Assembly: GCA_016213105.1 (NCBI GenBank)
Contig: JACRBN010000025.1
Coordinates: 124,001-188,000, forward strand
Direction of reading: 5' to 3'
Source of the DNA: Chloroflexota bacterium
GTDB taxonomy: Bacteria > Chloroflexota > Anaerolineae > Anaerolineales > Villigracilaceae
DNA length: 64,000 nt
In this document: one piece after another, positions 36,648-60,377 of the stretch
Layout of the letters: every line of letters starts with the position of its first letter
Numbering within the stretch: the first letter of the stretch is position 1
Program-made: the position numbers and the translations under genes
The notes under the pieces: generated by a model
What the model saw: only the letters and a program-made list of their open reading frames with translations
Database searches by the model: none
What the model was told of the DNA's origin: nothing

Positions 36648-37706
36648 CTAGAATTGAGAGAGGAAACGAACATCGTTTCCCCAGAAATAGCGGATGTCGT
36701 TGATCTTATAGCGCAGCATCAACTGGCGCTCGGGGCCCATGCCCCAGGCGAAGCCCGAGTAGATCGTCGGGTCATAGCCGCCGTTTTGCAGGACGACGGG
36801 ATGCACCATGCCACAGCCAAGGATTTCCAGCCAGCCCGAGTTCTTGCAGACCTGGCAGCCCTTGCCGCCGCACACGAAACATTCCGCGTCCACTTCGGCG
36901 GACGGTTCCGTGAACGGGAAGTACGAAGCGCGGAAGCGCGTGCGCGCGCCCTGTCCGAACATGCGCTGGGCGAAGTCGGCGATGGTGCCCTTCAAGTCCG
37001 CGAAGGTGATGCCCTTGCCGACCACGAGGCCTTCCACCTGATTGAACTGCATCTCCGAGCGGGTGGTCACCTGCTCGTAGCGGAAGCACATCCCAGGCAG
37101 GGCGATGCGAATCGCAGGCGGGTCGGATGGATTCGTCGCGGCGTACTCGCGCATCGCGCGGATCTGGCCCGGGGACGTGTGTGTCCGCATCAGGATCGGG
37201 TTGTCGCCGCGCTCACCCGCCTCGACGTAGAACGAATCCTGCATCTCGCGCGCGGGGTGGTGCGGCGGGAAGTTCAGCATCTGGAAGTTCATCTCGTCGG
37301 TCTCGACCTCGCGCGAGGTGTAGACCTGGAAGCCCATGTCGGCCAGGATGGCCAGCACGCGGCGCAGTTGCTGCGTGGACGGGTGCAGATGGCCGACGTT
37401 GACCGTCCGCCCGGGCAGCGTGACGTCGAGCTGCTCCTCTTCGAGTGCCTTGGCCAACGCTGCGGCCTTGACCGCCTCGGTCCGCTCGGCCAGGGCCGCT
37501 TCGAGCGCCACCTTGACCTTGTTGGCGGCCTGCCCGACGACGGGCCTCTCCTCCTTGGACAGTTTGCCCAGTTCCGCGAAGACCTGCATCAGTGGGGAAC
37601 TGCGGCCCACGTGGGCCACGCGCCACGCGTCCAGCGCCGCCTGATCCTTGACGGATTCAAGCGACTCGAGCGCGGCTTTTTCGATTGCGTTCAACTTATC
37701 CTGCAT
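36648..37706 (-). CDS. pheS: Phenylalanine-tRNA ligase alpha subunit
   Basis: 352 residues. An N-terminal coiled-coil arm (~1-90) is followed by class II synthetase motifs: MNFQMLNFPPHHPAREMQDS (motif 1/2 region), FRYEQVTTRSEMQFNQVEGL and GFAWGMGPERQLMLRY (motif 3). A CFVCGGKGCQVCKNSGWLE insert could bind a metal. Catalyses Phe-AMP formation and transfer to tRNA-Phe with PheT. TGGAGG precedes the start. Expression should follow the T-box leader upstream (38083-38386). Confidence 0.96.
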   Translation of the reverse strand: MQDKLNAIEKAALESLESVKDQAALDAWRVAHVGRSSPLMQVFAELGKLSKEERPVVGQAANKVKVALEAALAERTEAVKAAALAKALEEEQLDVTLPGRTVNVGHLHPSTQQLRRVLAILADMGFQVYTSREVETDEMNFQMLNFPPHHPAREMQDSFYVEAGERGDNPILMRTHTSPGQIRAMREYAATNPSDPPAIRIALPGMCFRYEQVTTRSEMQFNQVEGLVVGKGITFADLKGTIADFAQRMFGQGARTRFRASYFPFTEPSAEVDAECFVCGGKGCQVCKNSGWLEILGCGMVHPVVLQNGGYDPTIYSGFAWGMGPERQLMLRYKINDIRYFWGNDVRFLSQF

Positions 37707-38082: not shown

Positions 38083-38386
38083 CCTCCCGTCCACACTGGG
38101 ACGGGAGGGAGATTCCCGCGGTACCACCCAAATTAGTCACACTCGCTGTTCAAGGCTCGTGACTCACTTCGTGCCGACCATCATCGGCCTCCCTTGTAAC
38201 GCTGGGACTGCGGTTCAAACTACTTGTTGCGCAAATTGGCAATTTGCGTTACGTTCACCTGAACGGCTCGGGAGGGAACTTCGGTCGGTTTCGGTCGAGC
38301 GCGGGTTTCAGCGTGTCCTGCGCCTCTCTGGCGGCATCTACCGACGTACTTTCCTCTGTCATTGCTTTTTATAGGCTCGCCTGTTG
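38083..38386 (-). promoter_or_regulatory. T-box riboswitch leader for the pheST operon
   Basis: The T-box sequence GGTGGTACCGCG (38117-38128) that pairs with the tRNA acceptor end is followed by a terminator (stem 38083-38092/38099-38108, then TTTTTGTTTTC). Upstream are stem-I-like blocks (AATGACAGAGGAAAGTA, then AGAGAGGCG and CTGAAACCCG). GAAGTTCCC places a plausible UUC (Phe) specifier at 38276-38278. Uncharged tRNA-Phe would stabilise the antiterminator and turn the operon on. A palindromic repeat (38230-38248) sits between specifier and T-box. Confidence 0.9.
38230..38248. repeat. 19-bp palindrome inside the T-box leader
   Basis: CGCAAATTG/CAATTTGCG with one central base, the same element as at 35686-35704. 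A decayed relative lies near 10176-10199. Confidence 0.75.
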
Positions 38387-56779: not shown

Positions 56780-57838
56780 TTACAACAGCTTCTCGCTGAC
56801 CAGCAACTCCGCGTTGTAGATCGAGCCACCTGCCGCGCCACGGATGGTGTTGTGCGACAAGACCACGAACTTGATGTGCAGCAGCGGGTCGGGGCGGACG
56901 CGGCCGACCACGGTGGACATGCCCTTGCCCGTGAAGCGGTCGAGGCGCGGCTGGGGCCTGTCCGCTTCGGAGCGCACCAGGATGACGGGATCAGGCGTGG
57001 AGGGGAGTCCCGCGGCGAGGGGATGGGCGCGGTAGGCGCTCAGGGCAGCGATGATTTCCTGGGGGCTGGCGGGCGCGTCCAGTTCCACGCTGGCGCAGAC
57101 GGTGTGACCGTCCACCACGGCCACGCGATTGGTATGCGCCGAGAATTTCACATCCGCCAGTTGGATGCCTTGCGGGGTGAAACTTCCCAGCATCTTGCGC
57201 GGTTCCCATTCAACCTTCTCCTCTTCGCCGCCGATGTTGGGGATGACGTTGTCGATGATGTCGAGCGACGGTACGCCAGGGTAGCCCGCGCCCGAAAGCG
57301 CCTGCAGCGAAACGACAAAGGCACGCTTCAGCCCGAACGAATCCTGAATGGCATTGAGCGCCACGGTCAGGCCCGTGCTGGTGCAGTTGGGGTTGGTCAG
57401 GATGGCGCCGCTCCAGCCGCGATGGAGGCGTTGCTGTTTGATCAGCCCGATGTGGTCGGCGTTGACCTCGGGCAGCAGCAGCGGCACATCCTCGGCGCGG
57501 CGGTAGGAGGAAGCGTTGGAGCAGACCGCTATGCCTGCCTGCGCAAACTGCGGCTCCAGGTCTTTGGCCTGGTCGGCGGGCAAAGCGGAAAAGACAATCC
57601 GCGCGTCGCGAATCGTGTCGGGCAGGCACGAGACGAGCGTCATCTCGCGCGCCCAGTCGGGCATGGGATCGTTCAGCACCCAGCGGCAGGCCTCGGCATA
57701 CTTCTTGCCCTCGGAACGATCCGAGGCAGCCAGGGCCACGACCTTGAACCAGGGATGATTATCGAGCAGGGAGACGAAACGCTGGCCGACACTGCCTGTC
57801 GCACCGAGGACAGCCACGGGAATGATGGGTTGGGACAT
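56780..57838 (-). CDS. asd: Aspartate-semialdehyde dehydrogenase (archaeal/fungal type)
   Basis: 352 residues. NADP motif VLGATGSVGQRFVSLL near residue 10 and the catalytic Cys152 in TNPNCTSTG. The SNASSYRRAEDVPLLLPEVN block near residue 107 is typical of the archaeal/fungal-type enzyme. It makes aspartate semialdehyde, the branch point to lysine/DAP, threonine and methionine. AAGGAG precedes the ATG. The aspartokinase gene lies 121 bases upstream on the same strand across a REP-like repeat, so both may share the attenuator. Confidence 0.95.
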   Translation of the reverse strand: MSQPIIPVAVLGATGSVGQRFVSLLDNHPWFKVVALAASDRSEGKKYAEACRWVLNDPMPDWAREMTLVSCLPDTIRDARIVFSALPADQAKDLEPQFAQAGIAVCSNASSYRRAEDVPLLLPEVNADHIGLIKQQRLHRGWSGAILTNPNCTSTGLTVALNAIQDSFGLKRAFVVSLQALSGAGYPGVPSLDIIDNVIPNIGGEEEKVEWEPRKMLGSFTPQGIQLADVKFSAHTNRVAVVDGHTVCASVELDAPASPQEIIAALSAYRAHPLAAGLPSTPDPVILVRSEADRPQPRLDRFTGKGMSTVVGRVRPDPLLHIKFVVLSHNTIRGAAGGSIYNAELLVSEKLL

Positions 57839-57959: not shown

Positions 57960-59390
57960 CTACTTAACGATCATCTCATGCAGCGCCTTCACGGCGCGCT
58001 CGGTGTCGGCAGAGTCGATCACGATGCTGATCGAGACCTCGGACGAACCCTGGGCAATGGCCAGCACGTTGACGTTGTGCGCGCCCAACTGGCTGAAGAC
58101 GTGGCCCGAAACGCCAGGCGTGTGGCGCATCCCTGCGCCGACCACGGTCAGGATGGCGACCTCGTCGGTCATCCACACGCGGTCGATGTCGCCGTCCTCC
58201 AGTTCCTCGGCGAAGACATTTTCCAGCGCGCCGACGATGCTGTCCGCCATGTCGAAGGGCACGGCAAAGCAGATGGACTGCTCGGACGAAGCCTGCGTGA
58301 TGAGCGGGACGCTGGTGCCTGTGGACGCCACTGCGCCGAAGGTGCGCGCCGCCACGCCTGGGACTCCCAACATGCCGCGCCCCTCGATGGTGACCAGCCG
58401 CTGTTGGCGGATGGCCGTCACCGCGCGGACAACGTCCCCGCTGTGGGCGGCGCGATGTCCGTTGCCGTTGTTGGCCACCAGGCGCGTGCCAGGGTGGGAC
58501 GGGTTGAACGTGTTGCAGATGCGCAGACCAATGCCCGCATCCACCACAGGGCGGATGGTCTTGGGGTGCAGCACCTTCGCGCCGTAATAGGCCAGCTCCG
58601 CCACCTCGCTGTAGGTGACCTCAGCCAGCGTGCGCGCATTGGGGACAAGGCGTGGATCGGCGGTCATCACGCCGTCCACGTCGGTCCAAATCCACACGTC
58701 ATCGGCGGGCAGCACCGCGCCAAGGATAGCCGCGGAGTAGTCCGAGCCGCCGCGCCCGAGGGTGGTGATGGCGCCCTTCTCCGTCGCGCCGATGAAGCCT
58801 GTCACCACAGGGACGAGGCCCTGGTCGAGCAGCGGACTGAGCACGCGCCGCGTCCGCTCGGTCGTCTGCGCAAAATCGGGATGGGCGTGCTGGAAACGGT
58901 CATTGGTCAGGATCAACTCCGTGGCCTCGACGTATTTCGACGGCACGCCCGCGCTTTCGATGGCCGCCGACAGAAGCCTGACGCTCATGCGTTCGCCCAA
59001 GGAAGCGACCGCATCCAACGCGCGCGGAGAGGCCTCCCCCAGCACACTGATGGCGCGGCACAACTCGACGAACGAGTCGATCAACGCGCCGATCTCGGTG
59101 TTGACCTGCGCGCGGCGGGCGGAATCCGCGACCAGCTTGTCGGCCAGGTCAGCGTGGCTTTGACGGAGCCAGGCCGCGGCGCTGCGCAGAATGGTCAGGT
59201 CACCCTGGGCGGCGTGCGTGGCTGAATTCAGCAGGCGGTCGGTCGCGCCCGAGATGGCCGAGGTCACCACCACCACGCGTCCCCAATCGGCGCGGGTATC
59301 CTTGACGATCTGGACTGCGTTCGGCATGCCCACGCCCACGGAAGTCCCGCCAAATTTCATGACCAATGTTTTGGATGAGTTCTGTGACAT
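57960..59390 (-). CDS. Aspartate kinase, monofunctional
   Basis: 476 residues from the ATG at 59390 (AGGAG upstream). Kinase motifs: MKFGGTSVG at residue 11, TLGRGGSDYSA near 230 and WTDVDGVMTADPRLV near 253. Two ACT-type regulatory domains cover ~330-476. No homoserine dehydrogenase domain is fused. It makes aspartyl phosphate, the first step to threonine, methionine and lysine. The upstream Met/Thr-rich leader peptide and terminator indicate control by threonine and methionine supply. Confidence 0.95.
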   Translation of the reverse strand: MSQNSSKTLVMKFGGTSVGVGMPNAVQIVKDTRADWGRVVVVTSAISGATDRLLNSATHAAQGDLTILRSAAAWLRQSHADLADKLVADSARRAQVNTEIGALIDSFVELCRAISVLGEASPRALDAVASLGERMSVRLLSAAIESAGVPSKYVEATELILTNDRFQHAHPDFAQTTERTRRVLSPLLDQGLVPVVTGFIGATEKGAITTLGRGGSDYSAAILGAVLPADDVWIWTDVDGVMTADPRLVPNARTLAEVTYSEVAELAYYGAKVLHPKTIRPVVDAGIGLRICNTFNPSHPGTRLVANNGNGHRAAHSGDVVRAVTAIRQQRLVTIEGRGMLGVPGVAARTFGAVASTGTSVPLITQASSEQSICFAVPFDMADSIVGALENVFAEELEDGDIDRVWMTDEVAILTVVGAGMRHTPGVSGHVFSQLGAHNVNVLAIAQGSSEVSISIVIDSADTERAVKALHEMIVK

Positions 59391-59414
59391 AGTGCGCTCC
59401 TGGAAGAAAATAAA

Positions 59415-59443
59415 AACGCCCTGCGCGTAGCGCGCAGGGCGTT
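59415..59443 (-). terminator. Attenuator terminator before the aspartokinase gene
   Basis: Perfect 13-bp stem (AACGCCCTGCGCG on one arm) with a 3-base loop, followed on the minus strand by TTTATTTTC. It lies between the leader peptide stop (59467) and the aspartokinase ATG. Bases 59430-59439 of its 5' arm can pair instead with 59490-59499 inside the leader-peptide codons. Confidence 0.9.
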
Positions 59444-59466
59444 TGTGTGGACTTGTGCCGACTATC

Positions 59467-59550
59467 TCAGGCTTGACCAACCAAACGAACCCTACGCGCG
59501 GGGCGGAGGGTAGTCATGGTCATGGTCATGCCGAAGGTCGGGTGAGACAT
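59467..59550 (-). CDS. Met/Thr-rich leader peptide of the aspartokinase attenuator
   Basis: 27 codons: MSHPTFGMTMTMTTLRPARR and seven more residues, then TGA. The run MTMTMTT places three Met and four Thr codons in sequence, as in the thr leader peptides of enteric bacteria. The ATG lies where transcription should begin (TATAAC at 59559-59564), so the leader is probably translated leaderless. Downstream codons for Ala-Arg-Arg contain GCGCGTAGGG, which can pair with the terminator's 5' arm. A stalled ribosome at the Met/Thr codons would leave that sequence free and allow read-through. Confidence 0.75.
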   Translation of the reverse strand: MSHPTFGMTMTMTTLRPARRVRLVGQA

Positions 59551-59558
59551 TGCGCGCA

Positions 59559-59587
59559 GTTATATCACTGGGATACGGATGCGTCAA
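59559..59587 (-). promoter_or_regulatory. Promoter of the aspartokinase attenuator
   Basis: TTGACG (59582-59587), 17 bases, TATAAC (59559-59564) on the minus strand. The predicted start is within 2-3 bases of the leader peptide ATG. Confidence 0.82.
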
Positions 59588-59591
59588 GCTG

Positions 59592-60377
59592 TCAACTGCT
59601 CGCTCCGCTGTAGCGTTTGACGCCCGCCTTCCAGACCAGCGAAGCGATCCACGCGCTGACGATGCTGACGGCCACGAAGAGCAGGATGCGCTCCACGGGC
59701 AGTTCGCCGCGCAGGGCCTGCAGCGGGATGGTGGTGGCGATGGCGATGGGGATGATGTAGGTGACGATGATGCGCAGCCAGACAGGATAAACGGTCACAG
59801 GGTAGCGGCCCGCGTCGAGCAGGGCCTGCAGAATGGTGACGTTGTTATCGAATTTGGTGAACCAGAAGGTCAGGGCGATCAGCACGATCCACAGGCTGTA
59901 GATGACGACCGCTCCCGAAATGGTCAGCAGCAGGAAGGTCAGGATGCTGGGCAGGGTGGCCACGTCACCCGCCGTGTTGATGCCGACCACGATCAGGATG
60001 ACCGCCAGCACCAAATCCCAGATGCGCCAGACGGTGATGCGCGAGAAGGTGACCAGGAACATGCTGGGCGCGGGCTGAAGCAGGGTGTAATCCAGCGAAC
60101 CGTCGCGGATGCTTTCGTTGAAGCGTTGGGTGTTGGGCCAGATCAAGGCGATCATCAGGGTGTTGATCAAGCGGAAAACGCCCAGCAGGGCGATCAACTC
60201 GCCGATGCCCCAACCGCCCAGCGAAGTCGTATTGCTGAAGATGATGTTCAGCCCAAGCAGTTCCCAGCCGAGCCACATCAGGTTGAGCAGGATGTTGACC
60301 ACCGTGTCGGCGCGATAAGCCAGCGACATCTGCACGTTGACCTTGAAGAAGGTGGAAATTAATTTTAAGAAGTGCAT
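59592..60377 (-). CDS. ABC-2 type permease subunit, COG3694-like
   Basis: 261 residues, six membrane helices. Opening ISTFFKVNVQMSLAYRADT, then NESIRDGSLDYTLLQPAPSM near residue 87, is the permease signature shared by this ABC-2 subfamily. The C-terminus ends WKAGVKRYSGAS, matching the last residues of its partner (WSRGVKKYSAVGA). Partner genes lie directly upstream (permease and ATPase), so it is half of a heterodimeric exporter. Substrate unknown. GGAGG precedes the ATG. Confidence 0.88.
   Translation of the reverse strand: MHFLKLISTFFKVNVQMSLAYRADTVVNILLNLMWLGWELLGLNIIFSNTTSLGGWGIGELIALLGVFRLINTLMIALIWPNTQRFNESIRDGSLDYTLLQPAPSMFLVTFSRITVWRIWDLVLAVILIVVGINTAGDVATLPSILTFLLLTISGAVVIYSLWIVLIALTFWFTKFDNNVTILQALLDAGRYPVTVYPVWLRIIVTYIIPIAIATTIPLQALRGELPVERILLFVAVSIVSAWIASLVWKAGVKRYSGASS

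Follow-up and report, generated by a model that had tools for sequence, protein, structure and literature searches.

A candidate leaderless leader-peptide attenuator with methionine and threonine codons upstream of lysC-asd in Anaerolineales

What is an intrinsic terminator doing directly in front of an aspartokinase gene? The question is raised by the 64,000-nucleotide stretch of a Chloroflexota draft genome (5.4 Mb, 28 contigs) analysed here, which we call the window. In it, lysC (57960-59390; all features of the locus are on the minus strand) encodes an aspartokinase with AA_kinase and ACT domains and lies directly 3' of the terminator, with an AGGAG site; asd, for aspartate-semialdehyde dehydrogenase (56780-57838), is the second gene of the presumed operon. 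Judged by the aspartokinase, the nearest named relative is a groundwater Chloroflexi MAG (93% identity). In the enterobacterial thr operon, a Thr-rich leader peptide, competing hairpins and an intrinsic terminator precede the aspartokinase gene. A sequence-only reading of the window had proposed attenuation responding to methionine and threonine, perhaps extending to asd; the gene order supports this extension, asd being downstream of lysC in 62 of 67 related loci. We consider it very probable (roughly 0.9) that a ribosome-mediated attenuator of the trp/thr type controls lysC-asd, with a leader translated from the 5' end of its transcript without a Shine-Dalgarno sequence. The features expected of such an attenuator are present: a short open reading frame with runs of end-product codons lies upstream of a biosynthetic operon, an intrinsic terminator separates it from the first gene, and mutually exclusive antiterminator and protector pairings are placed so that stalling would free the strand we call region 2.

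Promoter, leader and competing helices upstream of lysC

Related lysC loci were compared, the best 80 of 131 being kept; apart from that of the groundwater MAG, the remaining 79 come mostly from Chloroflexi, Anaerolineales or Anaerolineae records. A promoter search blind to leader content found TTGAC, a 16-18-nt spacer, a TA-type -10 box and an ATG closely following it in most loci. The full layout (TTGAC, TA-type -10 box, ATG, Thr block usually with Met, terminator) is present in 67 of the 80 and in the window; these 68 kept loci were required to have a promoter score of at least 8.9 and a terminator. L111 and L112, whose score prints as 8.9, were dropped by rounding though their leaders are Thr-rich, L051 and L062 have little upstream sequence, and L059 has a Met/Thr block for which no good promoter was found. 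The promoter search found no such leader in L074, L089, L092, L098, L099, L105, L106 and L108. The more distant loci L109-L112 keep Thr-rich leaders and have different terminators. In L062:1-250 the lysC leader is missing, a possible natural disruption; by motif, what lies upstream resembles the end of a presumably transposase-like gene.

The -35 box TTGACG (59582-59587) and the -10 box TATAAC (59559-59564), separated by 17 nt, form the promoter that the sequence-only reading had described. A generic promoter scan does not list this promoter because it requires the -10 box to end in T. TTGAC occurs in all 68 kept loci, the promoter score being a selection criterion, and the spacer is 17 nt in 63. 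Transcription is predicted to start at an A, the eighth nucleotide after the -10 box (59551 in the window); this nucleotide is an A in 66 of the 68 loci, preceded by C at the sixth (58/68) and seventh (65/68) positions. The leader ATG of the window (59550) lies 8 nt past the -10 box, leaving a predicted 5' untranslated region of about 1 nt. The frame had been described as beginning at the transcription start itself; with the ATG 1 nt away, it is predicted to be near-leaderless, strictly speaking. Over the 68 loci, the ATG follows the -10 box at 7-14 nt (57 loci have 10 or 11), which, with the A at the eighth nucleotide taken as the start, corresponds to untranslated regions of 0-7 nt. A Shine-Dalgarno-like 4-mer is found within the 20 nt before the leader ATG in none of the 68 loci. 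The presence of such a site at all 68 lysC starts is partly by construction, those starts having been chosen with a preference for it, which does not apply to the zero count of the leaders.

The leader frame, of 27 codons (59467-59550; MSHPTFGMTMTMTTLRPARRVRLVGQA), contains the predicted control codons MTMTMTT at 59509-59529, as had been noted. Region 1 (ACCCT, 59507-59511) overlaps the last Thr codon and can pair with region 2 (GCGCGTAGGGT, 59489-59499, also within the leader frame), forming a protector hairpin. Region 3 (59430-59440) is the 5' arm of the terminator and can pair either with region 2, as antiterminator, or with region 4. The terminator hairpin of regions 3 and 4 (59414-59444) is followed by a T-rich tail and consists of 13 perfect pairs, in agreement with the earlier count, or 14 as a terminator scan counts them. 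The proposed 10-bp alternative pairing, 59499-59490 with 59439-59430 and one G-U pair, is likewise correct, and 59489-59440 extends it to 11 bp with a second G-U. A 165-nt stretch of the window covering this region folds with a z-score of -6.2, and none of 200 shuffles was as good. Between the leader stop and the terminator, many relatives appear, by eye, to have a small hairpin (AACCGAA...GGTT, alignment columns 118-138), perhaps a pause site, which has no counterpart in the window (about 59468-59450).

In the alignment of the 68 loci, standard pairs are formed at 96.9% in the terminator, 91.0% in the antiterminator and 85.3% in the hairpin of regions 1 and 2, with two-sided changes at 7 of 10, 5 of 9 and 4 of 7 pairs, respectively; slid controls for the three helices are 25-60% paired. 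The covariation score of each helix exceeds all 500 shuffles. The count of two-sided pairs does so in the terminator only, 32 of 500 shuffles being as high for the antiterminator and 67 of 500 for the hairpin of regions 1 and 2; the latter does not rise above shuffles on two of five measures (67 and 245 of 500 as high). Corrected for the lysC tree, changes at three pairs between regions 2 and 3 average 0.5, 1.7 and 0.9 concordant and 0.0 discordant, and at one pair between regions 1 and 2 they average 0.5 concordant and 0.2 discordant. No pair is significant in this tree-corrected test, which is underpowered at so few independent changes per pair. Since the corrected changes are few, nearly all concordant and not significant, covariation alone is given little weight. 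Stronger evidence for the alternative pairing, as far as sequences can tell, is the matching of each leader to its own terminator arm: the score of the best duplex averages 22.7 with the locus' own terminator, 18.9 when terminators are swapped between loci, 13.8 with the arm of the aminotransferase family described below and 13.6 with shuffled sequence. At most 5 of 100 dinucleotide shuffles form as good a duplex in 58 of the 68 loci, and 10 loci fail this test.

A looser detector (promoter, leaderless frame and terminator), applied in the same way to every set, was positive in 69 of 80 lysC loci, 23 of 30 aminotransferase loci and 2 of 81 hom, leuA or trpE loci; L092 is counted positive here, presumably elsewhere in its 1,500 nt. 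No leaderless attenuator precedes hom, leuA or trpE in 79 of those 81 loci, the two matches preceding leuA paralogs. From 55 lysC leaders we built a covariance model. At E<=1e-10 it matched 37 sites in 36 of 150 relatives, all of them next to lysC by coordinates; many of these are training sequences, the searched genomes including those from which the model was built. At E<=0.01, 22 of 400 genomes of the phylum had a match; 18 belong to the window's family, the group on which the model was trained. Inspection of 13 weak or distant matches identified four aminotransferase leaders, one lysC leader and eight seemingly other terminators. For other Chloroflexota families, 31 genomes with a lysC match were sampled and one (match starting at residue 77) was left out; a leader with terminator was seen upstream of lysC in none of the remaining 30.

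Codons of the leader and predicted response to ribosome position

The run of seven Thr/Met residues in the window leader exceeds the longest run in 20,000 random peptides of lysC composition (five) and in 3,148 other small ATG frames of the 67 related loci (four). Runs of at least three occur in 66 of 68 leaders, compared with 372 of the 20,000 random peptides and 22 of the 3,148 small frames, a control that leaves out frames nested in leaders. Over 1,805 leader residues, Thr makes up 19.6% and Met 7.9%; in the lysC aspartokinases the values are 7.6% and 1.8%. Leaders were aligned on the final TT run, at its last Thr, making Thr at positions 0 and -1 partly a matter of construction. The nine codons ending there contain at least three Thr in 64 of 68 loci and at least one Met in 63, and the relatives were found to keep the terminator, the Met/Thr codons and the alternative pairing, the combination on which the proposed Met/Thr attenuation had been staked. 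Five leaders are without Met in this block; L041, where the anchor falls ahead of the Met codons, and L094 have Met elsewhere in codons 2-20, a range in which 65 of 68 leaders have Met.

At position -2, Thr occurs in 55 of 68 loci, encoded by ACT, ACC and ACA. The diversity there is 0.19 and 0.24 for the first two bases and 0.68 for the third; at position -1 the third base has 0.44, and first and second bases at the two positions range over 0.09-0.24. Judged from these codons, Thr is under selection at the level of the amino acid, the third base varying while the residue is kept. Between the ATG and the end of the Thr block lie 8 to 23 codons; in spite of this variation, all 68 loci have ATG and Thr run in the same frame. 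ACC and ACT account for 312 of 354 leader Thr codons, compared with 1,133 of 2,452 in lysC. Under standard wobble rules both are read by one tRNA-Thr species, to which the preference points.

Folding was calculated at equilibrium, ignoring kinetics, for the transcript truncated after region 3, with a ribosome stepped along the leader one codon at a time. The mean probability that region 3 is held by upstream sequence is 0.71-0.77 with the A site at -6 to -3 and 0.77-0.79 at -3 to 0, and falls to 0.69 at +1, 0.44 at +2 and 0.20 both at +4 and at the stop codon. A stall on the Met/Thr block is therefore predicted by this model to give antitermination, an effect lost by +2 to +4. In the window, the probability is 0.98-0.99 on the block, 0.00 at the stop codon and 0.01 without a ribosome. 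Over all loci the ribosome-free mean is 0.41, with 20 of 68 antiterminated, which is a mixed state. Footprints of 12, 15 and 18 nt give a similar switch, shifted by about one codon, and scrambling the stretch between block and terminator flattens it to 0.34-0.50. When the predicted edge of the switch is used instead of the anchor (66 of 68 loci have a clear edge), Thr and Met account for 43% and 18% of the 524 codons ahead of it, and for 3% and 2% of the 612 behind it.

According to the proposed mechanism, a shortage of charged tRNA-Thr, and probably of tRNA-Met too, would stall the ribosome on the ATG/ACN block, where it covers region 1; region 2 would then pair with region 3, no terminator would form, and the polymerase would read into lysC-asd. 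With both charged tRNAs in ample supply, the ribosome would reach the stop codon and cover region 2, leaving regions 3 and 4 to terminate transcription. Without a ribosome, regions 1 and 2 would pair and the terminator would be favoured, a prediction that is clear in the window and less so on average.

A second leader and the pathway context

Among the weaker matches of the covariance model, a second predicted leaderless leader, MSRQLIVDTTTNTTRANRLRGVGGCQMNG, was found before a class I/II aminotransferase gene in the window's genome (L153/L160/L276; G000:C19, about 196,900-196,720, minus strand), with similar ones in relatives. The aminotransferase has matches at E<=1e-60 in 37 of 101 relatives. 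It scores above the Pfam cut-off for Aminotran_1_2 but above that of none of the 25 NCBIfam models listed, the one relative of known structure at E<=1e-15 being an aspartate aminotransferase. From its sequence, we regard it as a putative aspartate-aminotransferase-like enzyme. Its leaders (21 of 30 loci, promoter score >7.5) contain 15.6% Thr, 10.0% Asn and 1.2% Met in 649 residues. In 20 loci with a predicted edge, Thr and Asn make up 30% and 19% of the codons before it and 5% and 3% after it; Met accounts for only 2% before the edge, with Asn in its place. By an ungapped measure, 7 of 20 loci pass the shuffle test for the antiterminator, the pairing often being bulged by eye.

In four genomes examined, an M20/DapE-like gene and then lysC come after the aminotransferase gene, with asd next in three and a homocysteine S-methyltransferase gene in the fourth. 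Leaders of such joint operons, SATNNTNNMTTR (L188) and NTTTNMRNTTTR (L189), read Asn, Met and Thr. Between aminotransferase and lysC, the frames of L271, L272 and L274 (938, 1026 and 943 aa) have a C-terminal M20/DapE-like domain; for at least the N-terminal half, no Pfam family matched at E<=1e-8. The two elements before leuA paralogs, at L249:1200-1600 (plus strand) and in L247 (same place, reverse strand), combine a leaderless short frame with a terminator, and their leaders contain SKRMP and VKRLP. The gene in L249 resembles isopropylmalate and homocitrate synthases, with model scores all below cut-off, and two LysX matches lie within 10 kb of it; the element is possibly a Lys/Arg attenuator.

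DapB is absent from 57 of 61 genomes, including the window's (DapB_C was found in four). Lysine thus need not be a product of the pathway, which fits a leader without Lys codons, and Thr, Met and Ile may be the main end products supplied by the aspartokinase. LysX, from the LysW route, is present in 41 of the 61 genomes, again including the window's; members of the LysX family can also serve arginine. A SAM riboswitch lies downstream of lysC-asd in four of eight loci scanned (L049:5657-5783, L063:3127-3242, L058:2683-2805 and L052:2938-3055). In L049 it is followed by a gene for O-acetylhomoserine aminocarboxypropyltransferase, and similar proteins occur in the other three, so that methionine genes adjoin the lysC-asd operon.

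Alternative explanations and known systems

The terminator could be an ordinary one, closing an upstream ABC-transporter operon, with a chance reading frame and with lysC transcribed from elsewhere. In the window, a same-strand ABC-2 permease gene does end just upstream of the leader, at 59592. Only one of the relatives that carry the element (67, of which 58 have at least 800 nt of upstream sequence) has this gene near lysC, so the terminator does not belong to that operon; as part of a permease operon it is ruled out, the upstream gene not being conserved. Promoter, frame and terminator, on the other hand, are conserved together, and the gap from terminator to lysC in the window leaves little space for another promoter. 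We find this explanation as a whole hardly credible. Somewhat less remote, though still quite improbable, is a switch driven by a ligand-binding RNA, by a protein or by a general slowing of leader translation. Competing structures could indeed be biased by a ligand or a protein, and leaderless initiation is itself regulated under stress. Against such a driver, no Rfam family reaches its gathering cut-off at the site, Thr is conserved as an amino acid with free third bases, and different codons occur before a different gene of the same pathway.

A more serious competitor, in our view unlikely, is a sensor of threonine only, in which the Met codons are passengers, arising by expansion of an ATGACC repeat or serving as spare internal starts for a leaderless message. 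Thr is indeed the residue found in every kept leader and nearest to region 1, five of 68 blocks do without Met, some lineages have nearly pure Thr runs such as MTTTTTTT, and ATG ACC repeats could expand as hexamers. Met is nevertheless in the block of 63 of 68 leaders and drops from 18% to 2% across the switching edge, and the aminotransferase leaders, with 2% before the edge, have Asn instead. Stalls at -6 to -3, where Met is commonest, are also predicted to be antiterminating (0.71-0.77). The presumed effectors of the Met/Thr attenuator are deduced from codons alone, Met being less universal than Thr.

The window element resembles the enterobacterial thrL (Rfam RF00506, Thr_leader) in having a Thr-rich leader, competing hairpins and a terminator before aspartokinase. 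The Rfam model aligns with it end to end at 25.3 bits, below the gathering cut-off of 55, and gives no match at E<=1 in eight relatives. The second codon besides Thr is Met in the window and Ile in thrL; furthermore, the window has no Shine-Dalgarno sequence and encodes a single-function aspartokinase with asd, unlike thrABC. The one Rfam family at gathering level within the window is a T-box leader elsewhere (RF00230, 98.8 bits; 38094-38371, minus strand), upstream of a gene starting at 37706 that, from its sequence, we take to be pheS. Mycobacterial polycysteine leaderless short frames are reportedly amino-acid-responsive attenuators, according to the title of a 2020 paper by Canestrari and colleagues; they are leaderless like the window's leader, but read cysteine. 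Mycobacterial cys operons are described as lacking a conserved terminator hairpin in the quoted part of Seliverstov 2005 (PMC1262725).

Leaderless leader peptides of Streptomyces lividans are named in the quoted text of PMC8079986 as leuL1, leuL2, trpL1, trpL2, ilvL, metL and thrL. Like the present one, they lie at the 5' end of the transcript, contain amino-acid-specific codons and, for some, are followed by terminator-like structures; metL, which precedes metNIQ, holds several Met and Thr (PMC8079986, same text). They differ in phylum and in genes, thrL preceding thrS and metL a transporter; for these two the excerpt calls termination unclear, and its list of eight, as quoted, has no lysC-asd case (PMC8079986). 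Histidine leader peptides in Firmicutes are likewise attenuators outside Proteobacteria and Actinobacteria, but concern histidine genes, and the quoted passages make no mention of a leaderless start (PMC2965389, PMC9413887). In 2010, according to PMC2965389, leader-peptide attenuation had not been shown outside Proteobacteria and Actinobacteria, that paper's Firmicutes case apart. A 2016 survey of leader genes called the Chloroflexi signal insignificant for lack of genomes (PMC4833913). Predictions of leaderless genes are reported for 4 of 12 Chloroflexi genomes, with a mean of 4.7% (PMC3160421). In the literature searched, which covers few of the subscription journals, we found no report of leader-peptide attenuation in Chloroflexi, Chloroflexota or Anaerolineae. 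Ribosome-mediated attenuation and leaderless leader peptides are already known from Proteobacteria and Actinobacteria, and the novelty expected of the leaderless leader has to be narrowed accordingly, the Actinobacterial examples being on record in the quoted text (PMC8079986). As far as our searches reach, what is new is the phylum, the joint reading of Met and Thr on aspartokinase, and the partner reading Asn and Thr.

More broadly, we put at about even odds that the aspartate family of Anaerolineales is governed by a set of leaderless attenuators, each reading the end products of its own operon: Asn and Thr for the aminotransferase, Met and Thr for lysC-asd, and Asn, Met and Thr for the joint operon (L188, L189). 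Lysine would be missing from this code because most of the genomes have no DapB and so probably no diaminopimelate route, and since initiation would be leaderless, the set would respond as well to how leaderless initiation fares under stress. A well-conserved Chloroflexota case without a Shine-Dalgarno sequence suggests that attenuation can run from a 5'-terminal start codon in a large, mostly uncultured group, and would offer a natural replicate for asking if attenuation had a single origin or many. The paired elements would also provide a guess, readable from codons, at which end products control which enzyme, the aminotransferase included.
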